From Rhodospirillales bacterium (GTDB taxonomy: Bacteria > Pseudomonadota > Alphaproteobacteria > Rhodospirillales > Shumkoniaceae): 64,000 nucleotides of DNA. Within the stretch, counting starts at the first letter, position 1. Every line of letters starts with the position of its first letter. Made by a program: the position numbers and the translations under genes. Location of the stretch: the NCBI GenBank assembly GCA_016776725.1, contig JADHSV010000012.1:1-64000 (forward strand), read 5' to 3'. Positions 11,911-64,000 of this stretch are shown piece after piece. A model generated the notes under the pieces. That model was given only the letters and a program-made list of their open reading frames with translations. It was not told where the DNA came from and did not search any database.

Positions 11911-14656
<2,746 letters not shown>

Positions 14657-14657
14657 G

Positions 14658-16265
14658 ATGCTCAGACGCGCCGTTCAGATCGCATCTCTTGTTGCGTTCG
14701 CGGTGCTTCTGGGCGCGGCCATTGTTACGAATTCCGACACCACCGCGTTTGAGTGGGTGCTGGGCGCGGACCCGTCGCTCTCGCTTATGAGCGCCATCAG
14801 CGGGCGGGTATTCATGGCCGCCTTCATCCCGGCAGTCGTTCTCATGGCTTTGGGGTTTGTGGTGGGGCGCGGCTTTTGCGGCTACGTCTGCCCCATGGGA
14901 ACGTGTGTGGACGGGATCGATCATGTGATCGCCGCGAAACGTTCTACCGGCAACCGCTGGCGGAATGCCAAGTACGTGATTTTGGGTTTGATGTTGGGAG
15001 CGGCGGCGCTGGGCGTTTCGCTGGTTTATCTCGCTTCGCCCTTTTCGCTCATAGCGCGGATCTTGGGGATCGTCGTTTACCCTGTCCTGTCGGCGCTAAC
15101 CGAAGCGGGCCTGTGGGCAGTGCGCCCCGTGGCCGAACTGGCCGATTGGAACGCGGTTGTTTTCGCAAAAGTCGAAACCCCGTCGTTCGATACGCAACTG
15201 TTCCTGCTGGTTTTCTTGGGTGGGCTGGTGGCGGCGGCGCGCGTGGCCCCACGGTTCTGGTGCGCCAACCTTTGCCCGGCGGGGGCCATGCTGGCGCTGA
15301 CGTCGTGGCGGCCCGTGGTGCGCAGGCGGGTGTCGCAAGCCTGCGGCGGCTGCGCCAAGTGCGCCGACGTATGCCCCATGGGCGCCATCGATCCCGACGA
15401 TCAATTCGTCACCCGGCACGACGAATGCATCCTGTGCCGAACCTGCCAGAGCGTCTGCCCCAAGGGCGCGGTATCGTTTCTGCCATCGCCCGAAGAGGTT
15501 GCCCCGCCCGAGAGCGCGGGGATCATTGTGGGCCGACGGCAATTCGTGTTGGGCGGCTTGGCGGGGTTGGGGACGGCGGGGACTACCCTCGTCAAAGCCG
15601 AAGAACACCGCCTGCGCCCGCCCGGTGCGGTGCCGGAAGCCGATTTTCTGGCCCGCTGTGTGCGTTGCGCGGCGTGTGTGGCGGTGTGTCCGCAAAACGC
15701 CTTGCAGCCGCTGTATGACGCAACCGGGATGAGCGGCCTGTTCAGCCCCGGCTTGGTTCCGGCGGGCGGCTATTGCGATCCCGAGTGTTCGCGCTGCGGG
15801 GCCGTATGCCCCACCGAGGCGATCGTGGAGTTGACGGGCGAGGAGCGCCTGTGGGCCAAGACCGGCACGGCGGAAATCGTCCGCGAAGACTGCCTGGCCT
15901 GGGAAAACAAAGAAAAATGCATGGTGTGCGACGAGGTTTGCCCCTTCGACGCCGTGGTTTTCAAGATTGAACCGGACCATCCCGTCACCGTTCCGCATGT
16001 GGAAGAAAACAAATGCGTCGGCTGCGGCTATTGCGAAAACGCCTGCCCGGTCAAACGCCCCGCCGCCATCCGGGTCGCGCCGAAAAACGCCGTGCGCCTG
16101 ATGGCCGGATCATACGTGGCCGAGGGACGCAAGCGCGGCCTCGACATCGCCCTGGACGCCACACCGCCCCTACCGGGCCAGAATGGCGTGGAAACCACCA
16201 ACGATAAATCCGATACCGGCCCCGCACCCGGCTTTGACGCCCCGGCCCCGGGCTTTTCCCCCTAG
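14658..16265 (+). CDS. Membrane-bound polyferredoxin, NapH/NapG-like 4Fe-4S protein
   Basis: About 535 residues. The N-terminal half has several transmembrane segments and a NapH/CcoG-type motif, GFCGYVCPMGTC (C74, C78, C83), then WCANLCPAGAML. After these come cluster motifs CGGCAKCADVCP and CILCRTCQSVCP, a second Tat/hydrophobic-like region (GRRQFVLGGLAGLGTAG), and a NapG-like series: CVRCAACVAVCP, CDPECSRCGAVCP, CMVCDEVCPFDA and CVGCGYCENACP. It thus looks like a fusion of NapH-type and NapG-type proteins that could pass electrons from quinols across the membrane. ATG directly follows the DUF362 stop, so the pair is an operon. No nap reductase is present. Confidence 0.85.
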   Translation: MLRRAVQIASLVAFAVLLGAAIVTNSDTTAFEWVLGADPSLSLMSAISGRVFMAAFIPAVVLMALGFVVGRGFCGYVCPMGTCVDGIDHVIAAKRSTGNRWRNAKYVILGLMLGAAALGVSLVYLASPFSLIARILGIVVYPVLSALTEAGLWAVRPVAELADWNAVVFAKVETPSFDTQLFLLVFLGGLVAAARVAPRFWCANLCPAGAMLALTSWRPVVRRRVSQACGGCAKCADVCPMGAIDPDDQFVTRHDECILCRTCQSVCPKGAVSFLPSPEEVAPPESAGIIVGRRQFVLGGLAGLGTAGTTLVKAEEHRLRPPGAVPEADFLARCVRCAACVAVCPQNALQPLYDATGMSGLFSPGLVPAGGYCDPECSRCGAVCPTEAIVELTGEERLWAKTGTAEIVREDCLAWENKEKCMVCDEVCPFDAVVFKIEPDHPVTVPHVEENKCVGCGYCENACPVKRPAAIRVAPKNAVRLMAGSYVAEGRKRGLDIALDATPPLPGQNGVETTNDKSDTGPAPGFDAPAPGFSP

Positions 16266-52513: not shown

Positions 52514-53668
52514 CTAAACCTTGGTGATGCCCCCCGCTTCGTTGGTCTGCATACCAGCGGCCATCAGTTTTTCGGGCGACGTGACACGGCAGTCGGCCAG
52601 GGCATCGTAATTCGGCGTGAAGCCGAGGCCCGGCGCGTCGGGAATTTTCACCATATCGTTTTCGGGCGCAGGTGCGCCGGTGAAGAATTTTTGCCCGGCC
52701 TGCCACATGCCCCAGTGGAATTCCACCAGCCAGCCGTTCATGACGCCGGCCATGGTATGCATGTTAAAGATGGGCCAGCCGCCGCCGTTGGCGATGGGCA
52801 GGTTATAGGTCTGGGCCAGATGGGCGGCCTTCAGGGTTTCGGTGAAGCCGCCGTTGTAACAGCAGTTGGGCTGCAAAACGTCGATCGCCTGGTTTTCCAC
52901 CAGTTCGCGAATGCGCCAGCGATGCCCCTCCATCTGCCCCGCCGCAATCGGGATGTTGGTGCCGCGCCGCAAATCGGCCAGGGCCCGGGCGTCGTTCTGA
53001 TAAAGCGGTTCCTCGAACCATGTCAGGTTACAATCCTCGACCGCCCGACACAGCATCTTGGCGTCGATGGGCGAGAAACGGTAATTGGCGTCGATCATGA
53101 TGTCGACGTCGGGGCCGACGGCATCGCGCACCGCCTGGATGCGCCGGGCGTCCTCGCGCCAGCCGCCCTTGTCGTTGGCAACCACCATTTTCAGGCGCGT
53201 ATTCCCCTCGGCCACAAATTTCTTTGCGTATTCGCATAACTGGTCGATGTCGAAGAAGGGATAACCGAACGTGATGTAGGTGGAGGCCCAGTTCCGGTGG
53301 CCGCCCATCAATTGGGCCACGGTGCGCCCGGTGGCCTTGCCGTGAATATCCCAGCACGCGATGTCGATGGCCGACAGAGCATTGGACACGACGCCCGTGT
53401 AGGCGCGCGGATTGACCTTCCACCAGACCGCCTTGTGAATGGCTTCGGTGTCGCGCGGGTCCATTCCCTTGATGGTGGGAAAGATGTCATGCTCGATGGC
53501 CGCAATCTGCGCCCAGGGAAGGAACGCGCCGGTTACGCCATGCCCCGTTAGCCCGTCGTCCGTTTCGACCTCGCAAAAGGTCAGAACGCGCTGTTCCATG
53601 GGCTTGTCGATCATCGGCAGATAAACCGGGAACTGATGAATGCTCGCCGTGATTTTTGCAATCTTCAT
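52514..53668 (-). CDS. Enolase superfamily protein with changed active-site residues
   Basis: A 384-residue protein with the mandelate-racemase subgroup layout: KMVVANDKG, MIDANYRFS (Asp ligand), WFEEPLYQ (Glu ligand). However the third metal position reads AAGQMEG (Gln where Glu is expected), the Asp of the His-Asp dyad appears as Asn (LQPNCCYNGG), and the His position appears as Asn (PIANGGG). Activity may therefore be altered or lost. It is coupled by ATGA to the MmgE/PrpD gene and ends the cassette C operon. Confidence 0.82.
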   Translation of the reverse strand: MKIAKITASIHQFPVYLPMIDKPMEQRVLTFCEVETDDGLTGHGVTGAFLPWAQIAAIEHDIFPTIKGMDPRDTEAIHKAVWWKVNPRAYTGVVSNALSAIDIACWDIHGKATGRTVAQLMGGHRNWASTYITFGYPFFDIDQLCEYAKKFVAEGNTRLKMVVANDKGGWREDARRIQAVRDAVGPDVDIMIDANYRFSPIDAKMLCRAVEDCNLTWFEEPLYQNDARALADLRRGTNIPIAAGQMEGHRWRIRELVENQAIDVLQPNCCYNGGFTETLKAAHLAQTYNLPIANGGGWPIFNMHTMAGVMNGWLVEFHWGMWQAGQKFFTGAPAPENDMVKIPDAPGLGFTPNYDALADCRVTSPEKLMAAGMQTNEAGGITKV

Positions 53669-55098
53669 AAACAATTCTCCGTCAGTTCGCGGACGTTTTG
53701 TAAGCTCTCCAACGTGCGAACGGTTTCAACGATTTTGGCGGTTTTCGCCTGTGGCCACTGCGCGAATTCGGCGCAGCCGCGGAATTTTTCCGCTGCCTCG
53801 TCATAGGTCATCGGATTTGCCGGACTTCCCTTCCCAAAATCGGCGCGGCCTGATATTTCGCGGCCGTCTTTTAAGGTAATGTCGATGATGGTCGTCATCT
53901 TGTCATAACCGGCAGCCTCAGCCTCCGGATGCACGCCGAAGTCGACGCGCGCAATCATTTCCTGAACGTCGGCGCGATTGACCACTTCGTCGGCAAACTC
54001 GCCAAGACCCGCCTTGCCTTCGATCAGAAGGATCGCCATGCAAAACTCCATGCTGAACTTGGCCTGAAGCTCGTCGGTGGGTTGATGATGGATCAGCGCA
54101 TTGGGCATGTTGTGGTTGGTGCCGACCGCAACGCTCTCCACCTGATCGGCGATTATCCCGTGTTCGCGGATGAGGCGCAGCATTTCGGTCATACCGGGAT
54201 GGGTGAGCGACCCCGACGGGTGCGGCTTGATGGAAACGCCCGGCGAAATAAAGGTCCACGGATCGCCGAGGCGGCCCGAAATGGCCTCCAGATCGTAGCC
54301 GCCGCCGTGGGCCTGGAAAAAGCCACGCGGCGCTTCCAGAATGCCGTCTGCGGCGGTCCATCCCAATTCTGCAAATTCAGCCGCGACAATGCCGCTTTCG
54401 GAGGCCCGGCCCGCATGAAACGGCTTGGTCATGGAACCGAAGTTTTCACGCAGACCAGCCGACTGGCTGGCTGCGATGGCAAGCGCGCGAAGGATCTGGT
54501 CCTGATCAAAACGGCCCAGCTTGGCGGCTGCCGCAACCGCGCCCAGAGGGCCGCAGGTGGCAGTGGAGTGGAACCCATGTTGGTAGTGGCGCGGCGAGAT
54601 CGCTTCGGACACCTTGCATTCAACTTCGACGCCCACGTGGTAGGCGACCATTAGATCGATGCCCGACAGGCCCGACACTTCGGCCTTCGCAAGTGCGGCG
54701 GGCAGAACTGGCGCGGTTGGGTGGGTGAGCAAGCCGTAGACCCGGTCCTTGCCCACGGCAAGTTGCGTATCGTCAAAATCGTCGGCGTGAATGGCGACAC
54801 CGTTGGCAAACGCGGCAAAGCGTGCCGGAACCTTCATGCCGGTTCCGATCACCCGGGCCTCGCCGGACATGTTCAAAGATGAAAGATGGGAACAAACCAA
54901 CTCGCCGCTTTTCGCCACCGAGCCAGACAGCGCTAGCCCCAATCCATCGAGGATGGACTTCTTGCCCAGGTCAACTAATTCGGGGGAAAGATCGCTCCAG
55001 CTAGTATCGGAGATAAATTGGGCGACCTCTTTGGTCAGTCCGCGACCCTTGTCGGGGTCGATCTCAGGTGTGAATTTCGTAATCGATTTATTGTCCAC
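53665..55098 (-). CDS. MmgE/PrpD family protein
   Basis: About 477 residues from GTG at 55098, which has GAGG 8 bases upstream; longer frames run into the pdxA-like gene. It has the MmgE/PrpD pattern (AVGKDRVYGLLTHPTAPVLPAALA, HYQHGFHSTATCGPLGAVAAA, HAGRASESGIVAAEFAELGW). Family members include 2-methylcitrate dehydratase and cis-aconitate decarboxylase-like enzymes. No prp genes are present, so substrate specificity is open; an imported carboxylate is likely. Confidence 0.85.
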   Translation of the reverse strand: MDNKSITKFTPEIDPDKGRGLTKEVAQFISDTSWSDLSPELVDLGKKSILDGLGLALSGSVAKSGELVCSHLSSLNMSGEARVIGTGMKVPARFAAFANGVAIHADDFDDTQLAVGKDRVYGLLTHPTAPVLPAALAKAEVSGLSGIDLMVAYHVGVEVECKVSEAISPRHYQHGFHSTATCGPLGAVAAAAKLGRFDQDQILRALAIAASQSAGLRENFGSMTKPFHAGRASESGIVAAEFAELGWTAADGILEAPRGFFQAHGGGYDLEAISGRLGDPWTFISPGVSIKPHPSGSLTHPGMTEMLRLIREHGIIADQVESVAVGTNHNMPNALIHHQPTDELQAKFSMEFCMAILLIEGKAGLGEFADEVVNRADVQEMIARVDFGVHPEAEAAGYDKMTTIIDITLKDGREISGRADFGKGSPANPMTYDEAAEKFRGCAEFAQWPQAKTAKIVETVRTLESLQNVRELTENCL

Positions 55099-55120
55099 GC
55101 AGTTTGCCTCAAGTGTTGTT

Positions 55121-56086
55121 TCAACGACTCTTCGCGCGTTTGATTTCTGCCATTTTGCACACCAGGAAAAACGCCTGGCGCAACCCTTCTGCGTTAGCGA
55201 TGCCCTTGCCGACAATGTCGAAGGCGGTGCCGCTGGCGGGTGTCGTGATGGGAACCGGGACGCCGCCGGTCACGGTGACGCCGCGTTTGAACCCCATCAG
55301 TTTCATGGCGATTTGCCCCTGATCGTGGTACATAGTGACGACCGCATCGAAATTCCCGTCTTTTGCTTTCAAAAAAATCGTATCGGCTGCGAACGGCCCG
55401 TTGGCGTCAATGCCTTCGGCTTTTGCGGCTTCGATGGTCGGCGCGATGATGTCAATTTCCTCGCGGCCGAACATGCCGCCGTCACCCGCATGCGGGTTAA
55501 GGGCGGCGACCGCAATGCGGGGCTTCTCGAACCCGGCGGAACCCAACGTGTTGTGGGCCAGACGGATGGCGCGCAGGATGCGTTCGGGCGTAACCAGGGC
55601 GCATACCTCGGATAATGGAATATGCGACGTGGTCCGCGTTGTCCACAGGCCGTCCAGCACGTTGTGCTCGCAAAACGGCCCATCGAAATCCAGTTCGTGG
55701 GCGAAGAAAATGTGTTCGTCGGCGACCGGACAACCGCCCAGCTTCAGGGCGTACTTGTTGAGTGGTGCAAAGCAAAAACCGTCGATCTCGCCCTTTTTAG
55801 CCATGTCCAATGCCACGCTCAACGACTTCAGGCACGACCGTCCGCCTGCCGCCGTGGCCTCGCCCGGCGTGACTTCTTCAACCGTTATGCACGGAACGTC
55901 CAGAAACGGAACGTCGGTCGGAACGGGTATGCCAGCCACCTTTTCAGCCATGCGCAATATCCGCGTATCGCCGATAACGAGGATGTCGGCGCGTTCCCGC
56001 ACATCCTCGCCCGCCAAAAGTTTGACCGCCATTTCAGGCCCGACGCCGTTGGGGTCGCCGAGCAGCACGCCGATTTTGGGTTTCAT
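55121..56086 (-). CDS. PdxA-like dehydrogenase (4-hydroxythreonine-4-phosphate dehydrogenase family)
   Basis: A 321-residue protein with the PdxA metal-site histidines in EHIFFAHELDF, ALNPHAGDGGMFG and TMYHDQGQIAMK, and the N-terminal LGDPNGVGPE. Being outside a pyridoxine locus and inside a catabolic operon with transporters, it is probably a PdxA2-type enzyme acting on a four-carbon phosphorylated acid, not in vitamin B6 synthesis. ATG at 56086 lies 4 bases after the TctA stop. Confidence 0.85.
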   Translation of the reverse strand: MKPKIGVLLGDPNGVGPEMAVKLLAGEDVRERADILVIGDTRILRMAEKVAGIPVPTDVPFLDVPCITVEEVTPGEATAAGGRSCLKSLSVALDMAKKGEIDGFCFAPLNKYALKLGGCPVADEHIFFAHELDFDGPFCEHNVLDGLWTTRTTSHIPLSEVCALVTPERILRAIRLAHNTLGSAGFEKPRIAVAALNPHAGDGGMFGREEIDIIAPTIEAAKAEGIDANGPFAADTIFLKAKDGNFDAVVTMYHDQGQIAMKLMGFKRGVTVTGGVPVPITTPASGTAFDIVGKGIANAEGLRQAFFLVCKMAEIKRAKSR

Positions 56087-56090
56087 CTGA

Positions 56091-57575
56091 CTAGTTTCCG
56101 CCAACCATCTTCTTCATTTGTTTGAACAAGAAGGGTCCGAACAAACCAAGGAAGGTAAGGATGAAGAACGACACCGCGATGGGCCGACCAAAGAACATGG
56201 TCCAGTCATGCTCGAAAAGCAGAAGCGACTGTTTCAAAGTGTTCTCCACCAGATCGCCCAGAATGATCCCCATGATGATCGGGGCCGGGGCAAAACCATA
56301 ACGGCGCAGCACAAAACCAAGCAGGCCAAACACCAGCATGATGCCCACATCGACCATGGCCTGTTCCAACGAATACGCGCCGACGACCGCCAAAACGAAA
56401 ACAGCGGGCCAAAGGAACGTGCGCGGGATCAGGGTGATGCGGGCGAACAGTTTTGCGCCCACCAGGCCGATACCCAGGAACAGAATATTGGCGACCAACA
56501 TGGCTCCGAAAATTCCGTACAAAAGGTCCGGCTGTTCCTGGAACAGGTACGGTCCGGGGCGCAGGCCATGGACCAAAAGCGCACCCAGAATAACGGCGGT
56601 TGTGCCACTGCCGGGAATGCCCAGGGCCAGGGTCGGAATCATCGCCCCGCCGGTGGCCGCGTTGTTGGCCGCTTCGGGTCCGGCGATGCCTTCAATGGCA
56701 CCGTTGCCGAATTCGTCTTTGTTCTTCGACCAGCGCCGCGCTTCGTTGTAGCCGATCATGGCTGCGACGGTGCCGCCTTCGGCAGGCAGGATGCCAATAA
56801 AGGTGCCGATGCCGCACGAACGCACGATGGTCTTCCAAACCAGCTTGAAATCTTCCTTGGTCGGAAGCTTGACCGCAAGGGCCGCGACGCGGTGATAAAC
56901 CACGTCCAGACTTGCCGCCTGGGCCAGCAACTCGGCGCCGCCAAAAATACCGATCATCACCGGGATAAAGTGAATGCCTTCGGTCATTTCAGGATAGCCA
57001 AAGGTAAACCGCTCGACCCCGGTCGTGAAATCAATTCCGACGGTGGCAACCAGAACGCCAAAGGTGCCGCCGATCAGATTCTTGACCGCCGAGCCTTTGG
57101 TAATTGAGGCCAGCATGGAAAGGCCAAAAAGAGCCAGAGCGAAGTATTCGGGCGGCCCGAAGCTGTAGGCCATGCGCGCCAGCATCGGGGCGGCGACCAA
57201 CAAAACGATAACACTGAAAATGCCGCCGATGGTGCTGCTGACCGTGGCCATGCCCAAGGCGCGACCGGCTTCGCCGCGCAACGCCATGGGGTAGCCGTCG
57301 ATGGCCGTGGCTGCGGCTGGAGGTGCACCGGGTGCGTTAATTAATATGGCTGTGATTGATCCGCCGAAGGTCCCCGCGCAATAAAGGGCTGAAAGCAGGG
57401 CAATGGCCGGAACCGGCGGCATCATGACGGTAAATGGCAGCAGCAATGCGGTTGCCATAGTCGAGGTCAGCCCCGGTAATGCGCCGACGAGGACGCCGCC
57501 GACGGTGCCGCAAAGCACAATGAACAGCAAATACGGGTCCGTCATAATCGAAATGGCGTGAAGAAGTCCGTCCAT
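56091..57575 (-). CDS. tctA: Tripartite tricarboxylate transporter permease, TctA family
   Basis: A 494-residue membrane protein with the TctA repeats GALPGLTSTMATALLLPFTV, GTFGGSITAILINAPGAPPA and NAATGGAMIPTLALGIPGSG. It is the second complete tct system in this window and clearly a separate paralogue of the one at 31650. Downstream genes pdxA-like, mmgE/prpD and enolase-like form the same operon, so its substrate is likely a carboxylate they metabolise. Confidence 0.95.
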   Translation of the reverse strand: MDGLLHAISIMTDPYLLFIVLCGTVGGVLVGALPGLTSTMATALLLPFTVMMPPVPAIALLSALYCAGTFGGSITAILINAPGAPPAAATAIDGYPMALRGEAGRALGMATVSSTIGGIFSVIVLLVAAPMLARMAYSFGPPEYFALALFGLSMLASITKGSAVKNLIGGTFGVLVATVGIDFTTGVERFTFGYPEMTEGIHFIPVMIGIFGGAELLAQAASLDVVYHRVAALAVKLPTKEDFKLVWKTIVRSCGIGTFIGILPAEGGTVAAMIGYNEARRWSKNKDEFGNGAIEGIAGPEAANNAATGGAMIPTLALGIPGSGTTAVILGALLVHGLRPGPYLFQEQPDLLYGIFGAMLVANILFLGIGLVGAKLFARITLIPRTFLWPAVFVLAVVGAYSLEQAMVDVGIMLVFGLLGFVLRRYGFAPAPIIMGIILGDLVENTLKQSLLLFEHDWTMFFGRPIAVSFFILTFLGLFGPFLFKQMKKMVGGN

Positions 57576-57588
57576 CTATCAATCAACC

Positions 57589-58116
57589 TCAGCGGAAAAA
57601 TTCTGTAAAGAAACCCAGCGGGAAATTTACTTCCATGACCCGCGAGAAAAGGAAATACACCAGCACCGGATAGATCGCGGCGAAGATGGCGATGATCTTG
57701 AACCTGCGTTCACCCCACAAAATCGGAAGGGCGATGCAGAACAACATCATCGCGGCAATGATCCCAACCCAATTAACAATGCTGACGAATACGATCAGCA
57801 ATACCGCCGATAAAAACACGACCTTGGGTAAGGGTTTGCGCTTCTTCGCTTCCTGACCCCAGGCCTGAAACATCATCATCACGGCAAAGGCCGAAATCAG
57901 GAACAGCAGAAGCCGTGGGAACTGGGTGGGCGGAACGCCCTGCGCCATCGCCGAAGGCACCTCGTCGAACAGGGTCGTCAGGTAGAAAACGACGGCGCTG
58001 AACAAAAGGACGGCGACGCCCATTGGGAGGTCGGTGTGAATGGAGAAGGGGCGCGACCCTTGATCGGGCCGCGCCTTGTTCCCGTCACCATTTTGCGTGG
58101 TTTTTGTATCAGTCAT
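57589..58116 (-). CDS. tctB: TctB family small membrane subunit
   Basis: A 175-residue protein with four predicted transmembrane helices and a hydrophilic N-terminus. ATG at 58116 chosen because the longer frame runs into the tctC gene. It lies between tctC and tctA, matching the canonical gene order. Confidence 0.88.
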   Translation of the reverse strand: MTDTKTTQNGDGNKARPDQGSRPFSIHTDLPMGVAVLLFSAVVFYLTTLFDEVPSAMAQGVPPTQFPRLLLFLISAFAVMMMFQAWGQEAKKRKPLPKVVFLSAVLLIVFVSIVNWVGIIAAMMLFCIALPILWGERRFKIIAIFAAIYPVLVYFLFSRVMEVNFPLGFFTEFFR

Positions 58117-58138: not shown

Positions 58139-59116
58139 TTACTTGATGAACCCAAGTTCCTTGAGGCTCTTTTCGCCGTCGGCGTAGAGCTGCTTGATCT
58201 GAGCCGTCCAGTCGGCGGAACCGACGATGCTGCCAGCATCGAGGCCGACGGTTTCCAGATAGCCAAGGTAGTAGCTGTGCTTCATGGCTTTGACGATCTT
58301 GGTTTCCAGCGTTTTCAACTCAGCGTCCCCAGTGCCTTTCAGGGTCACGAAGCCGCGAACCGTCGAGAACGTCGCGTCGATGCCCATCTCGACCGAAGTC
58401 GGCACGTCCGGCAACGGTCCCATGCGCTTCTTGGCAAGCACGATGAGCGGTTGGATTTCGCCGGCCTTGATCTGGGATTCGGCCTCCGAAAGGTTCAAAA
58501 CGCCGATATCAACGTCGCCGCCGATCAGGTTGGTGACGATGTGTCCGCCGCCTTCATAGGGGATGTAGTTGATTTTGATGCCCGCTTTGTTGGCGAAGGT
58601 GGCGACCGTAACCTGATCGATACCGCCAACATGCGTTCCGGCGACTTTCAGTTTGCGTTTACCCGCTTCGGCCAGCATGGCTTTGGCGTCCTTGAACTTG
58701 CCGGCCTTGGCCATCAGAAGCTGCGGATCGTCGGTGGCGCGCGCGATGCCGACCAAATCATCGATCTTAAGCACGGACTTGCCCATGGCGATGGTGAACA
58801 GATGGCTCGGCGTGATCGTCATGATCGTGTGACCGTCGCGATCCTTGCCGTTGATGTAGTTCATGGCCACGGCACCACCGCCGCCACGCTTACTGACCAC
58901 CGTCATGTCAGCTTTCAGTTCGCGGCGTGCGCGCATCATCATCATGCGGGTGGTAACGTCGGTGCCGCCGCCGGCTCCGGCGTGGGTCACGACTTCAATG
59001 GTCTTGGACGGGAATTTATCCGCCGCTTGAGCCGCACCGGCCGCGAGACCAAGTGCGAGAGTCGCCGTTGCACACGCGAGGAACGCACGGCGCGGTGTGA
59101 AAATGCTGTCCGTCAT
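58139..59116 (-). CDS. tctC: TctC/Bug family substrate-binding protein
   Basis: A 325-residue protein with a Tat-like signal peptide (TPRRAFLACATATLALGLAAG) and the Bug signature FPSKTIEVVTHAGAGGGTD, GGGGAVAMNYINGKDRDGHTI, and LPDVPTSVEMGID. It is the ligand receptor of the second Tct system. It heads the cassette C operon, opposite the 2-hydroxyacid dehydrogenase gene. Confidence 0.92.
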   Translation of the reverse strand: MTDSIFTPRRAFLACATATLALGLAAGAAQAADKFPSKTIEVVTHAGAGGGTDVTTRMMMMRARRELKADMTVVSKRGGGGAVAMNYINGKDRDGHTIMTITPSHLFTIAMGKSVLKIDDLVGIARATDDPQLLMAKAGKFKDAKAMLAEAGKRKLKVAGTHVGGIDQVTVATFANKAGIKINYIPYEGGGHIVTNLIGGDVDIGVLNLSEAESQIKAGEIQPLIVLAKKRMGPLPDVPTSVEMGIDATFSTVRGFVTLKGTGDAELKTLETKIVKAMKHSYYLGYLETVGLDAGSIVGSADWTAQIKQLYADGEKSLKELGFIK

Positions 59117-59468
59117 ATCTGAATGTCTCCCTATGTCCTCTGAACGCGGTTAAGCTCGCGCTTCGGCAAGGCGAATGCAGCGCTTCTCGCGAGCGACCTG
59201 GGTTGGGTGGCACCTTGGAGTTAAATTGCGTTGTCTTCACACCGGATGTCCGCACGTCGAAAGCCGAATTCCGGCGATTTCATGCAAACTTGCTTCCCTG
59301 TCGCATCCCGGCGCGTGTTATTCTTCGTTCGGATGCTCACCTCCCAATATTGATGGTGCAAGCCACGCGGAAATGTGTCAACATAATTTTGTCGACACTA
59401 GACAAATTTATATGTGCGTACGCCGAACATAGCGGCGGCCAAAAAATTATTTTGGGGCGGAATACTCT
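59117..59468. promoter_or_regulatory. 352-base divergent regulatory region between tctC and the hydroxyacid dehydrogenase gene
   Basis: The longest gene-free stretch in the window. It holds TGTCAACA (59376-59383), TGTCGACA (59390-59397), and a TTGTC-N7-GACAA dyad (59389-59405) extended by AATTT arms to 59409. The same boxes occur upstream of gntR and the ferredoxin operon, so it is probably the main operator of the adjacent GntR regulator. Nothing else recognisable was seen. Confidence 0.6.
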
Positions 59469-60422
59469 ATGAAAGTTTTCGTGCTGGATCCGATCAATGC
59501 CAAAGGTGTCGAACTTTTGCATAAAGAGGCCGAGGTTGTCCTGTGGGACGATCCGGCGGCCGCGGGGTGGCATGGCGAGGCCGATGGCGTGATCGTGCGT
59601 GGCACGACGCCGTTGAAGGAAGCCGACTTCGCCGCCGCAGCGCGGCTAAAGGCGGTCAGCAAACACGGGACCGGGGTAGACCGCATTGATCTGGACGCCG
59701 CGCGGCGCAACGGGGTGCGTGTCATGAATACGCCCGGCCTTAACGCCGAGGCCGTAGCCGAAATGACCATGACGCTGGCGCTGGCGGCAGCCCGCAGGGT
59801 GCCGATGATTGACCGTATGCTGCGCTCCGGCCAACCCGTGGCGCGCGAGGATTTCGACGGCAGCCGCGCTGGCGGGGCACAAGGGTTCTGGGGAAAAACC
59901 GTGGGCGTCATCGGCATGGGGGCCATCGGCCGCCGCGTCGCCGCCAAGTGGTCGGCCGCGTTCGGGATGACCGTCCTTTGGTTCGACCCGTTTGTTCCCG
60001 AAGCCGCCGGGGGCGACCTGAAAGGCGAAAGGATCACCGATCTTGATCAGATGCTGGGGCGGGTCGATCTGCTGAGCATCCATGCGCCCCTGACCAAACA
60101 GACCAAGGGAATGATCGGGGGCCCGGAAATTGCCCTGATGAAGAAATCGGCGGTGCTGGTCAGTGTCGCGCGTGGCGGAATTGTTGACGAGGATGCACTT
60201 TATGACGCACTTTCCGGCGGTTCGCTTTTCGGGGCGGCGCTGGATGTTTTCGAGCAAGAACCGCCGGCTGCTGATCATCCGCTGTTCAGTATTCCAACGT
60301 TCGTTGGAACACCGCACATTGCGGCTGGAACGGTCGATTCGCGGGAACATACGGCAATTGCCGTGGCCCGGCAGCTTCTCGATGTTCTGGAGGGGGGCAA
60401 GGGCAGTAACATTCTTGTGTAG
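59469..60422 (+). CDS. D-2-hydroxyacid dehydrogenase family protein (phosphoglycerate dehydrogenase-like)
   Basis: A 317-residue protein with the NAD-binding motif GKTVGVIGMGAIGRRVA and catalytic residues in the standard places: Arg in VARGGIVDE, Glu in LDVFEQEPP and His in GTPHIAAGT. No ACT/ASB domain is present, so it is more likely a catabolic 2-hydroxyacid dehydrogenase than serine biosynthesis. It lies divergent from tctC and upstream of gntR. Confidence 0.9.
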   Translation: MKVFVLDPINAKGVELLHKEAEVVLWDDPAAAGWHGEADGVIVRGTTPLKEADFAAAARLKAVSKHGTGVDRIDLDAARRNGVRVMNTPGLNAEAVAEMTMTLALAAARRVPMIDRMLRSGQPVAREDFDGSRAGGAQGFWGKTVGVIGMGAIGRRVAAKWSAAFGMTVLWFDPFVPEAAGGDLKGERITDLDQMLGRVDLLSIHAPLTKQTKGMIGGPEIALMKKSAVLVSVARGGIVDEDALYDALSGGSLFGAALDVFEQEPPAADHPLFSIPTFVGTPHIAAGTVDSREHTAIAVARQLLDVLEGGKGSNILV

Positions 60423-60472: not shown

Positions 60473-61183
60473 ATGAATAAAACAACGACCGCACCCAGAA
60501 GCAAAACCGCCCAGACGCTGGAAATCCTGCGCACCCAATCGCTGACAACGATTGTGCTGGAGGAACTGGAGCGGATGATCCTGTCCGGCGAACTAAAGCC
60601 GGGCGAACGTATCAACGAGAAAGCCCTCGCCGAGCAGCAATCGGTCAGCCGCGGACCGATTCGCGAGGCCTGCCGCCGTCTTGAACAGGCGGGGTTGGTG
60701 GAAATCGTCGTCAATCGCGGTGTCTTCGTGCGCAAATTGAAGGCGGGCGATGCGGCGGATATCTGTGACATCAAGGCGGCGTTATCGGCGCTCATCGGCC
60801 GCGCCCTGGCGCTGAGCATTACGGACGAGCAACTGGAGACCCTGAGGGGCATGGTTGCGCGCATGGAAGATTTGGCCGCGCGGGGCGATGTCGCCACCTA
60901 TTATCCCATCAACGTCGAATTCCACAACGTCATGCTGGGTTTCACCGGAAACGACCGACTTATCGAAATGTGCACCGGGGTTGATAAGGAGCTTTACCTC
61001 TTTAAGCGCAAAAGCATGGACGTGGGGCCGGGGCTCGACCGCTCGGTCGCCGAACACCGGGTCGTCATCGAAGCTCTGGAAAGTCGTGACGAACACGCCG
61101 CCGGCGAAATCATGTGGCAACACGCCATTACCGGAAAATTGCGTCTTCTGGGGGCTCTTCCGGAAACGGAAAACGAAAATTAG
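60473..61183 (+). CDS. GntR family regulator, FCD subfamily
   Basis: A 236-residue protein. Winged helix-turn-helix (LERMILSGELKPGERINEKALAE, VSRGPIREACRRLEQAGLVEI) and an FCD effector domain with His/Asp metal-type residues (NVEFHNVM, AEHRVVIEAL). It probably senses a carboxylate and controls the divergent tct operon, the dehydrogenase and perhaps the ferredoxin operon through TGTC(A/G)ACA boxes. Confidence 0.9.
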   Translation: MNKTTTAPRSKTAQTLEILRTQSLTTIVLEELERMILSGELKPGERINEKALAEQQSVSRGPIREACRRLEQAGLVEIVVNRGVFVRKLKAGDAADICDIKAALSALIGRALALSITDEQLETLRGMVARMEDLAARGDVATYYPINVEFHNVMLGFTGNDRLIEMCTGVDKELYLFKRKSMDVGPGLDRSVAEHRVVIEALESRDEHAAGEIMWQHAITGKLRLLGALPETENEN

Positions 61184-61240: not shown

Positions 61241-61279
61241 CAAGCAATAAATTGTCAACAACCGACAATTTATTGCTTG
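61241..61279. promoter_or_regulatory. Perfect 16-bp inverted repeat upstream of the ferredoxin operon
   Basis: Arms 61241-61256 and 61264-61279 match exactly across a 7-base spacer. The core is TTGTC-N7-GACAA, the same spacing as the dyad at 59389-59405, and it contains TGTCAACA (61253-61260). This supports an operator role; a terminator of gntR is possible but there is no T-run. The core TGTCA-N5-CGACA also resembles, with one base less spacing, the CO sensor CooA box recalled from Rhodospirillum rubrum. Confidence 0.6.
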
Positions 61280-61378: not shown

Positions 61379-61915
61379 ATGGATGTCATCGCGGTTCACG
61401 TGGACCGTTGTGTGGGTTGCAAGACCTGTGAACTGGCCTGCGCGGTGGAGCGCGGAAGCGAAGGAAAAACGCTTTTAAGCGCCGTTCGCGAGGCTCCGCA
61501 ACCGCAAGCCCGAGTGCGCGTGGAAGGCGCGGGCGGCGTTTCGTTCGCCATTCAGTGCCGCCATTGCGCGGATGCGCCGTGTCTGGACGCCTGTCTGACC
61601 GGAGCCCTGGCGCGCGACGCCGAAAGTGGGCTGGTGCGCGTCAACGATGACCGCTGCATCGGGTGCTGGACCTGCGTCATGTTTTGTCCCTACGGCGTTA
61701 TATTCCCGTGGCCCGAACGCAAGCTGGCGCTTAAGTGTGACCGCTGCATGCACATGGAATCTTCGGCCTGCGTCGACTCGTGTCCGACCCAGGCGCTGGA
61801 AATCGTCAACGTCGAAAAGCTGGCCGACGCGTATGCCGAAAAACGGCGTAGCGCGGCCATGGCGGCATCCGGGATTGGGATAGACGGTGCCGTTCATCTC
61901 GATCTTGGGAAATAA
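61379..61915 (+). CDS. CooF-like ferredoxin with four 4Fe-4S clusters
   Basis: A 178-residue protein with 16 cysteines in four groups: C11/14/17/21, C60/63/68/72, C93/96/99/103 and C120/123/131/135. The arrangement resembles HycB/CooF/DmsB-type electron-transfer subunits, which shuttle electrons from a catalytic protein to partners such as CODH or a flavin oxidoreductase. It starts with GGGAGG upstream, and is followed after 27 bases by the CODH-like gene. No membrane segment is seen, so it is probably cytoplasmic. Confidence 0.88.
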   Translation: MDVIAVHVDRCVGCKTCELACAVERGSEGKTLLSAVREAPQPQARVRVEGAGGVSFAIQCRHCADAPCLDACLTGALARDAESGLVRVNDDRCIGCWTCVMFCPYGVIFPWPERKLALKCDRCMHMESSACVDSCPTQALEIVNVEKLADAYAEKRRSAAMAASGIGIDGAVHLDLGK

Positions 61916-61942
61916 ACAAACCTCTCCGGGGAAACGTCAGTT

Positions 61943-63190
61943 ATGGAAAGCATTCACTTAAAATCAGTCGATCCCGTCAGCCAGGATCTTTTGCGTATCG
62001 CGGCGCGGCGGGGGCTGGAATTGTCGTGGGAACGCTACGAAGCCCAGCAGCCGCAGGACGGATTTGTTCGCAGCGGCCTTGGCTGCGCCTTCGGGTGCCT
62101 GCACGGCCCGTGTCGTATCGACCCGTTCGGACGCGGGGCAACCAATGGAATTTGCGGAATCGACCGCGACCAAATGGTCGCTGCGTCGCTGCTGCGCCTG
62201 TGCTTGAACGGAGCGCTGGAGGCCGGGGTATCGGGGGATTGCGTTGTTCAGGCCGCCGTCATGTTAAGCCGCCCGCAAGGCTCGGTTGATGAATTGGTTC
62301 GCGCCGCCGCGGACCTCGGTGTGGCGGCTTTCAAGGCCAGCGGCGAGGCCGAAGGTGTTTCAGGCGGGGTTAAGGCCGGATACGGCGTTCTTGCCGCCGA
62401 CGGTCCGATCATCGGCGTTTGCGGCAATCCGGACGAAGCCACTGTGTCGAAGCTGGTATCGGCGAAGGGGCGGGGCCGCGTGGTCTCGCTGGGCGACTGG
62501 ATTTCCGTGGGCGGCGAGCTTCTGCCCTTCGCGTGTTCCTCGGGCGAGGGCGAACTGGCCATCGCATCCGGGTGCATTAGCCAAGTGGTTTGCGGGGCGG
62601 ATGCCGATCCCGCCATCATAGCCGTTTGTGAACAGGCAGGCGTACCTGTCGGCGTCGAGGCGGTTGATGCGGTAGCGGGGGCTTCCGACTTTACTCCGCA
62701 GCCTGAACAGTTTGGGGAGGGAGCCGTGTGCGCGCCCGGTGATATCGCGAAGGGTCCGCTGTGCCTAATCGGCGGGTCCGATATGCCGCAACAGTCCATG
62801 GGCTGGCTGGCAAGCGAATTGCCGGGCGCGCTCGCGGCCGCAGGCCAAAACGTGGCGGCCTGGGGCGATGCGGCGCTGTGGGTCGTCAAGGGGGGCACGG
62901 CGGGCGTGCAGACGCTCGACCCCGTTCGCGGACCATGGGACGCGTGTGCGACGTCCGGCTCGAACCTCAAGGGAATTTGCTTTACCGGTTTGTCCGGATG
63001 CCGTGATCTGGCCGTGGCGCTGGGCGCTGCCGCGTTGGGCGCGCGGGTGTGCGTGGCTACGCCGTTGCCGGTTTGGGGCAGCGAAGCCGTTTGTGATGCA
63101 ATTGATGGGATCGTCGACCGAAATGGTGGCGAGTTCGCGCACTTCGATCATCCGGCAAGCGCCGATGAAATCCTGGCCTGGTTTGGATAA
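61943..63190 (+). CDS. Shortened CODH-like (CooS-type) protein
   Basis: A 415-residue protein, compared with about 640 for CooS. The N-terminal region has C48-x3-C52-x4-C57-x13-C71 (GCAFGCLHGPCRIDPFG...GICG), matching the CooS B-cluster pattern apart from one extra residue between the first two cysteines. The two D-cluster cysteines are missing. Possible C-cluster equivalents are C160 (IIGVCG), C217 (VVCGADAD) and C353 (GLSGCRD). The His and two Cys ligands of canonical enzymes seem absent. So CO oxidation is not assured. It is coupled to the downstream reductase by TAATG. Confidence 0.7.
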   Translation: MESIHLKSVDPVSQDLLRIAARRGLELSWERYEAQQPQDGFVRSGLGCAFGCLHGPCRIDPFGRGATNGICGIDRDQMVAASLLRLCLNGALEAGVSGDCVVQAAVMLSRPQGSVDELVRAAADLGVAAFKASGEAEGVSGGVKAGYGVLAADGPIIGVCGNPDEATVSKLVSAKGRGRVVSLGDWISVGGELLPFACSSGEGELAIASGCISQVVCGADADPAIIAVCEQAGVPVGVEAVDAVAGASDFTPQPEQFGEGAVCAPGDIAKGPLCLIGGSDMPQQSMGWLASELPGALAAAGQNVAAWGDAALWVVKGGTAGVQTLDPVRGPWDACATSGSNLKGICFTGLSGCRDLAVALGAAALGARVCVATPLPVWGSEAVCDAIDGIVDRNGGEFAHFDHPASADEILAWFG

Positions 63191-64000
63191 TGGGCAGGGC
63201 CGACTACGATCTGGTTGTTGTGGGTGGCGGTGCCGCCGGGCTTAACGCGGCCTTTTCGTGCAGGCAGCGGTTCCCGGACAAACGGGTTCTTCTGATCGAT
63301 CGTGAATCCGAGGTCGGCTACTACCGCACCCTTCTGCCCATGTTCATGGCGGGCAATCTGAATGAGGACAAGCTGTTTTTCTGGAAGTCCGGCGATGACG
63401 AAAATCTGGACACCCGTCTGGGTGTTCAGGTGCGCAGTCTGGATCGCGCCGCTAAATGCCTGACCCTGGACACCGGCGAAACCATTGGCTACGCGCGGCT
63501 GGTTCTGGCCTGCGGCGGTTATCCTATCGTGCCGCCGGTGTTCGAGCGCGCGGTAACCCCCGAAGGGGTATTTCCCGTGCGCGGCCTTTCGGTGGCCCGC
63601 GAAATCAAGGATTGGTTGCCCCAACGTCGCGATATCGTTGTGCTGGGCGGCGGTCTGGTGGGCTCCAAGACGTCCGTATTCCTGCGCCTTGCGGGTTTCA
63701 ACGTGACCCTGGTCGAGAAGGAAGCTCATATTCTTCCGACGGTTCTAAGCGCCGATACCGCGCGGCCCCTGCAACGCCATCTGGAAAACATGGGAGTGCA
63801 GGTTAAAACCGAAACCACCATCGATCAGTTCAAGGCCGACGCGGATGGCGCGGTATCGTCGGTGCATCTGGCGACGGGTGAATGGCTGCCCTGCGGGACG
63901 TTTCTGGTGGGCATCGGTTCGACGCCGGATCTTGCGTTTTTGGATGGCACGGGTCTCGTGGAAGACGGCGAGCTGGTCGTTTCGCCGACCCTGCAAACGC
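63190..64000 (+). CDS. FAD-dependent pyridine nucleotide-disulfide oxidoreductase, 3'-truncated by window
   Basis: About 270 residues visible. FAD-binding motif YDLVVVGGGAAGLNA at the N-terminus, second NAD(P)-binding motif DIVVLGGGLVGSKTSVFLR, and FLVGIGSTPDLAFLD. No redox-active Cys pair or NADH-oxidase-type Cys is seen, so it looks like a ferredoxin/NAD(P) oxidoreductase or related enzyme. The ATG overlaps the CODH-like gene stop (TAATG). The combination ferredoxin, CODH-like, flavin oxidoreductase recalls known CODH-ferredoxin-FNOR modules. The end of the gene and any genes after it lie outside. Confidence 0.82.
   Translation, partial: MGRADYDLVVVGGGAAGLNAAFSCRQRFPDKRVLLIDRESEVGYYRTLLPMFMAGNLNEDKLFFWKSGDDENLDTRLGVQVRSLDRAAKCLTLDTGETIGYARLVLACGGYPIVPPVFERAVTPEGVFPVRGLSVAREIKDWLPQRRDIVVLGGGLVGSKTSVFLRLAGFNVTLVEKEAHILPTVLSADTARPLQRHLENMGVQVKTETTIDQFKADADGAVSSVHLATGEWLPCGTFLVGIGSTPDLAFLDGTGLVEDGELVVSPTLQT

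Follow-up and report, generated by a model that had tools for sequence, protein, structure and literature searches.

What becomes of a carbon monoxide dehydrogenase (CODH) homologue, and of the electron carriers encoded next to it, when the ligands for CO chemistry have gone? The question is raised by an operon in a bacterium of the order Rhodospirillales (assembly GCA_016776725.1, contig JADHSV010000012.1). The window, i.e. the whole stretch of DNA that was analysed, is 64000 nt long and covers positions 1–64000 of this contig (C22, 67055 bp), part of a 2.48 Mb assembly that is 74% complete with 3.6% contamination. Near its end, on the forward strand, lie the genes for a CooF-like polyferredoxin of 178 residues (61379–61915), a CODH-derived protein of 415 residues (61943–63190) and a FAD/NAD(P) oxidoreductase (FNOR) of 430 residues, FNOR/PadH-like, which starts at 63190, crosses the window end at 64000 and stops at contig position 64482. 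A first-pass annotation had described three closely spaced, coupled genes, and the open reading frames bear this out: a gap of 27 bp separates the first two, and the second and third overlap in TAATG. The operon extends past the flavoprotein gene, with three more genes outside the window. These encode a 241-residue protein with two [4Fe-4S] motifs (contig 64485–65210, directly 3' of the flavoprotein gene), a 218-residue protein (65220–65876) and a PdxA-like protein (65881–66879), the last of the block.

The reading favoured here, at a probability of about 0.45, is that of a repurposed CooF-CooS-FNOR module, in which a CODH remnant would relay electrons between NAD(P)H and the 241- and 218-residue proteins, and these would act on an imported hydroxycarboxylate. 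The evidence is drawn from one bacterial family, together with distant copies of the downstream pair.

CODH ancestry of the 415-residue protein

By sequence comparison, secure homology to CODH is confined to residues ~5–113, the N-terminal quarter of the protein. The CODH model TIGR01702 matches with 63 bits at profile positions 2–83 of 621, against a curated cut-off of 478 bits; three complete CODHs score 614–722 bits over the full length of the model. A search of the PDB gave credible matches to CODHs alone (best 1jqk, E 1e-20, residues 8–152). Alignment by hhalign to three CODHs gives E 2e-21 over residues 8–93, with 49% identity over 85 residues and no further match outside this range. Together, these matches securely establish that the N-terminal segment descends from CODH. 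A comparison with the CODH and hybrid cluster protein (HCP) families had been proposed in the first-pass annotation, and it gives a mixed answer: the CODH match holds for the N-terminal quarter and fails at full length, and HCP is rejected. No HCP model in NCBIfam matches at E<=1, and the match to Pfam Prismane (PF03063), the family of this related superfamily, reaches 27 bits, just at the cut-off, at profile positions 4–49 alone.

Neither Pfam nor NCBIfam has a model that recognises the C-terminal ~300 residues, and profile searching of the PDB with this part returned only meaningless matches. Profile-profile comparison with CODH yields a weak colinear path of 214 columns against three CODHs and of 274 against five, with a score of 25.4 in both cases, where column shuffling reached maxima of 24.3 (120 shuffles, mean 16.0) and 26.5 (150 shuffles, mean 16.3). 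Probably, though not provably, this part is a CODH core that has been trimmed and rebuilt. The alignment registers disagree, with MAFFT placing the CODH 'GICCTG' loop at residues 344–349 and hhalign pairing the CODH HGH motif with C160, so no residue-to-residue equivalence is claimed here, that of the lysine near the C-cluster of CODH included. An AlphaFold2 (AF2) model of the protein from its single sequence was unusable, with a predicted local distance difference test (pLDDT) score of 37.

Metal ligands and CO chemistry

The census of metal ligands covers five homologues that align over their full length. The four cysteines of the N-terminal B-cluster segment (residues ~5–110), C48, C52, C57 and C71, are invariant in all five; their motif, CX3CX4CX13C, contains one inserted residue, reading CX3C where CODH has CX2C. 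The D-cluster cysteines are replaced, by D39 and by G or S at position 47. This loss alone is not decisive, because some CODHs lack the D-cluster as well (PMC6344411). Beyond residue 95 just three cysteines (C160, C198 and C229) and two histidines (H400 and H403) are invariant. Since the CODH C-cluster needs five cysteines and one histidine, a canonical C-cluster cannot be built, whatever the alignment. The His-rich stretch that follows the B-cluster segment in CODH, and carries the acid-base histidine, has no counterpart in the 415-residue protein.

The nickel-inserting ATPase CooC gave no match at 1e-5 in the window genome (74% complete) or in four genomes of the same family that are 97–99% complete (G000–G004 in all), and it was found in both genomes that carry a complete CODH (G440, G516). 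A complete CODH was detected in none of 60 relatives. CO chemistry by the 415-residue protein is very unlikely, and an active CODH is rejected on the ligand census and the non-detection of CooC. The protein had been described earlier as a shortened CooS homologue; its derivation from CODH stands, and 'shortened' proves too simple, because the ligands of the D- and C-clusters are lost and secure homology extends over the N-terminal quarter only.

Redox partners and canonical CooF-CooS-FNOR operons

The ferredoxin (Fer4_11, 2.9e-16) has 16 cysteines in four groups of the CX2CX2-7CX3 type, from which four [4Fe-4S] clusters are predicted. It is 48% identical to CooF of one true CODH operon and 39% to that of another. 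The flavoprotein (Pyr_redox_2, 3e-46) shares 27–28% identity with the FNORs of CODH operons. Two canonical operons from other genomes of the phylum (L046, L047) have the order CooF-CooS-FNOR-CooC, and clusters of CODH, CooF and FNOR have been described as putative NAD(P)-linked CO-oxidation units (PMC6344411, PMC8776680). The likeness to such modules noticed in the first pass is thus an exact one in gene order. Given the shared order and the homology of the partners, the window operon can be regarded as a CooF-CooS-FNOR module minus CooC and plus the genes for the 241-residue, 218-residue and PdxA-like proteins. Both kinds of operon have the succession of ferredoxin, CODH and FAD/NAD(P) oxidoreductase, a CooF of the four-cluster type and an N-terminal B-cluster segment. 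They differ in that the window protein lacks the C- and D-cluster ligand sets and has 415 residues instead of ~632, that CooC is missing from the operon, and that the operon continues with the three further genes and adjoins TctABC transporter genes and genes for hydroxy-acid enzymes.

A second system with a polyferredoxin wired to an NAD-linked flavoprotein is the NADH-dependent phenylglyoxylate dehydrogenase, with PadH and PadI (NF045765, NF045766). PadH is the best NCBIfam model for the flavoprotein, at 141 bits against a cut-off of 475; however, the matches to both models are far under their curated cut-offs, and the window operon has no 2-oxoacid oxidoreductase subunits.

Conservation and distribution

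The complete block, from the ferredoxin gene to that for the PdxA-like protein, is found at five loci in four genomes (contigs C22 and C36 of the window assembly, and genomes G001, G003 and G004). The first-pass annotation had asked whether the first three genes stay together, and they do: the CODH-like gene is accompanied by those for the ferredoxin and the flavoprotein at 5/5 loci, and was never found without both. Its protein is carried by 4 of the 60 relatives, all of the same family; the 241-residue protein, searched at 1e-20, occurs in 4 of 248 genomes of the order, the same four that have the block. The block is lacking in G002, another genome of the family. In a scan of 399 genomes of the phylum, matches came only from the window genome and the two genomes with canonical CODHs. 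A scan of genome contigs with the 415-residue protein gave only a canonical CODH from Chloroflexi (L005) and a match due to chance (L006), no relative was found on viral contigs, and plasmids yielded no relative of either the CODH-like or the 218-residue protein.

The ratio of nonsynonymous to synonymous substitution rates (dN/dS) of the CODH-like gene is 0.144 between C22 and C36, whose proteins are 85% identical, and 0.091 between G001 and G004, values indicative of purifying selection. Constraint is strongest on the N-terminal segment (0.076 and 0.017), with the C-terminal part next (0.16 and 0.10); identity to the G003 protein is 78% for the former and 50% for the latter. Recurrence at five loci and purifying selection indicate that the block is not due to chance.

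The downstream pair

The 241-residue protein combines its two [4Fe-4S] motifs with a domain of no known family, marked by a conserved GRGTEE-x-KTNDVT sequence. In profile searches neither this C-terminal domain nor the 218-residue protein matches a known family. The latter has four invariant residues, C157, H159, C192 and C194; three cysteines and a histidine suggest an iron-sulfur (Fe-S) site with an open iron. A 6-hydroxynicotinate-reductase-like enzyme was considered for the 241-residue protein and dropped, as text searching yielded nothing of use and profile support was lacking.

The two proteins are also encoded together at loci without the CODH module. At a CODH-free locus in G001 (L045:7047-12271, contig C15) the order is GntR-241-218-TctCBA. 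A distant pair of 285 and 228 residues is encoded in a genome from another family of the class (L021:510-2050, G198:C12), with no CODH module on its 8.3-kb contig. The pair would therefore be the more basic unit, and the CODH module looks like an added electron supply. The L045 locus, which has a gene of the enolase superfamily and an ABC transporter of the sugar type next to it, offers a simpler system for working out the function of the pair.

Metabolic context and substrate

Upstream of the ferredoxin gene, on the same strand, are genes for a GntR-type regulator (60473–61183), recognised by reading the sequence and with homologues at all five loci, and a D-2-hydroxyacid dehydrogenase (59469–60422; 2-Hacid_dh_C 5.8e-52). 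A divergent group on the reverse strand follows. Its first member, a TctC-type substrate-binding protein (58139–59116), was assigned from its sequence and its position upstream of TctB and TctA, and is conserved at 5/5 loci. Next come a TctB-type transporter subunit (57589–58116; start taken from the 175-residue copy on C36, L004), a TctA-type permease (56091–57575) that is 58–69% identical to annotated tripartite tricarboxylate transporter permeases, and a PdxA-like dehydrogenase (55121–56104; PdxA 4.1e-88). The group ends with an MmgE/PrpD-family protein (53665–55215; MmgE_PrpD_N 7.2e-59), whose start is uncertain as the reading frame overlaps the preceding gene, and an acid-sugar dehydratase-like protein of the enolase superfamily (MR/MLE; 52514–53674; MR_MLE_C 2.4e-54). 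For the latter the best NCBIfam model is L-talarate/galactarate dehydratase, at 171 bits, which is below the model cut-off.

Relatives of the TctA permease on plasmids, at the same 58–69% identity, adjoin genes for PrpD, D-2-hydroxyacid dehydrogenase, tartrate dehydrogenase and PdxA, and also L-rhamnonate dehydratase-like and dihydrodipicolinate-synthase-family genes. The similar mixture of genes in the window suggests that the substrate belongs to the hydroxylated (di)carboxylic acids and is imported, and the operon probably serves to break down such an acid. The transporter and hydroxy-acid genes and the two downstream proteins of no known family are the best clues to function, and go beyond what the first three genes had offered.

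Proposed mechanism and alternatives

In the proposed mechanism the CODH remnant, its CO active site lost, would keep one [4Fe-4S] site, that of the B-cluster, and join the ferredoxin, with its four clusters, and the FAD/NAD(P) oxidoreductase in a complex. Electrons would pass from NAD(P)H to the FAD of the oxidoreductase, and on through the ferredoxin, the B-cluster of the remnant, the two clusters of the 241-residue protein and the three-cysteine site of the 218-residue protein to the substrate, or in reverse. The pair would act chemically on an organic acid that enters through TctABC and is probably a hydroxy-(di)carboxylate; the enzymes resembling PdxA, PrpD, the enolase superfamily and 2-hydroxyacid dehydrogenase would process it further, with the GntR regulator presumably in control of the system. 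Electron transfer had been among the roles suggested in the first pass, and is reasonable in view of the module order and the co-occurrence of the genes.

Four points weigh against this scheme. The C-terminal part of the remnant, with three cysteines, two histidines and many Trp, Asp and Gly residues, is conserved enough to hold a site of its own, for which a pure relay has no need. The extra residue within the B-cluster motif might alter the cluster or abolish it. Electron flow could be the opposite, from oxidation of the substrate to NAD(P)H. Finally, as the 218-residue protein and the C-terminal domain of its partner match no family, the pair is an enzyme only insofar as we infer it to be one.

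The first of these points leads to the best-placed alternative, which is unlikely although clearly ahead of those below: that the 415-residue protein is itself catalytic. A new active site in its C-terminal part (C160, C198, C229, H400, H403) would then reduce or oxidise the imported acid, FNOR and ferredoxin would supply or remove the electrons, and the downstream pair would act in another step. The invariance of these five residues and of many Trp, Asp and Gly in the five proteins agrees with this, as do purifying selection on the C-terminal part and the constant presence of ferredoxin and flavoprotein genes. However, this part evolves faster than the N-terminal segment, the three cysteines are spread over 70 residues in no recognisable motif, and the pair is also encoded at a locus without the CODH-like gene.

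In other systems, Fe-S enzymes are known to be activated reductively by electron donors of their own, and there is a slim chance that the CODH-like protein, ferredoxin and flavoprotein serve to assemble, repair or reductively activate the Fe-S sites of the pair, outside the catalytic electron path. Occurrence of the pair on its own, for which the module is not essential, fits such a role as well. No sequence feature specific for assembly or activation was seen, though, and an operon encoding the module in stoichiometric fashion with an NAD(P)H flavoprotein fits a steady supply of electrons equally well.

Slimmer still is the prospect that the remnant senses CO, NO, O2 or the redox state and tunes the pathway; a redox sensor had been another of the roles first suggested. 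A protein that has lost its catalytic ligands and kept one cluster, next to a regulator gene, might be expected of a sensor, but it has no attached signalling or DNA-binding domain, the regulator is an ordinary GntR-type protein, and a dedicated flavoprotein and four-cluster ferredoxin are better suited to electron transfer.

It is highly improbable that the protein is a functional short Ni-CODH passing electrons from CO to NAD(P)+, in spite of the CooF-CooS-FNOR gene order and the N-terminal homology. A parallel would be the mini-CooS of Thermosinus carboxydivorans (clade G), likewise a small, divergent CODH-like protein, which is reported to have a complete metal motif (PMC8776680). Compared by the definition of mini-CooS in that paper, not by sequence, the 415-residue protein differs in lacking the C- and D-cluster ligands. 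A short Ni-CODH is contradicted by the presence of only three invariant cysteines after residue 95, the lack of conservation in the region of the acid-base histidine and the non-detection of CooC; a mini-CooS is rejected on the ligand census and on CooC. Least probable of all is a decaying CODH fragment or an assembly artefact, as the small size and lost ligands might suggest, and this is rejected because the same architecture recurs at five loci in four genomes with dN/dS of 0.09–0.14.

Relation to known CODH diversity

The open-access literature yielded no account of a CODH-derived protein that lacks C-cluster ligands and is encoded in an operon of this kind, and literature searches gave nothing relevant on the combination of the downstream pair with PdxA and TctABC. 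CODHs have been studied as enzymes of CO and CO2, and surveys of the family filter on length, score and cluster motifs: one removed proteins of <550 residues, <200 bits or with deletions in the B-, C- or D-clusters (PMC6344411), another applied a limit of <400 residues plus motif filters (PMC8776680), and a third combined the same limit with an inspection of key clusters in odd branches (PMC13056359). Relatives of the 415-residue protein could be passed over by such filters, although a length cut at 400 residues alone would not remove it.

The data suggest that in some uncultured bacteria an old module for electron transfer has taken on a new function. If so, the CooF/FNOR wiring of CODH now serves another substrate, loss of the metal chemistry need not deprive a CODH-derived protein of its role in electron transfer, and two protein families are gained whose reaction is directly testable. 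A bolder version, which must be considered doubtful, is that the CODH-derived protein has an active site rebuilt for chemistry other than that of CO, or gates electrons, and that it forms a new Fe-S oxidoreductase system together with the two downstream families and the NAD(P)H flavoprotein, for a redox step on the imported hydroxycarboxylate. This would amount to an unrecognised catabolic route.

Other features of the locus

Upstream of the ferredoxin gene, at 61241–61279, is a perfect inverted repeat of 16 bp with a 7-bp spacer. Its core, AAATTGTC-N7-GACAATTT, is shared with the C36 copy and with G003, and is not present at the G001 and G004 loci. The gap between the divergent genes for TctC and the 2-hydroxyacid dehydrogenase contains a weaker copy (59386–59408), which has 3 mismatches. 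The repeat is a candidate operator of the GntR regulator.

The whole cluster, from the enolase-superfamily gene to that for the PdxA-like protein, occurs twice in the assembly, from window position 52514 to contig position 66879 and on contig C36 (G000:C36, L004:4119-18481). Nucleotide identity between the two is 82–90%, with synonymous divergence (dS) of 0.4–0.7 per gene. This represents either an old duplication or a contig of a sister species in the bin; given 74% completeness and 3.6% contamination, the C36 copy could be that of a sister species. Adjoining it (L004:2-3432) are genes for a GlcD-like FAD oxidase, EtfB and an EtfA that carries a ferredoxin domain at its N-terminus, in this order, which on a plain reading of their sequences resemble electron-confurcating dehydrogenase complexes.

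Elsewhere in the window, a long open reading frame at 14490–16265, directly 3' of a DUF362-like frame (13751–14656), has several ferredoxin-type Cys motifs and, judged by its sequence, resembles a fused membrane electron-transfer protein.

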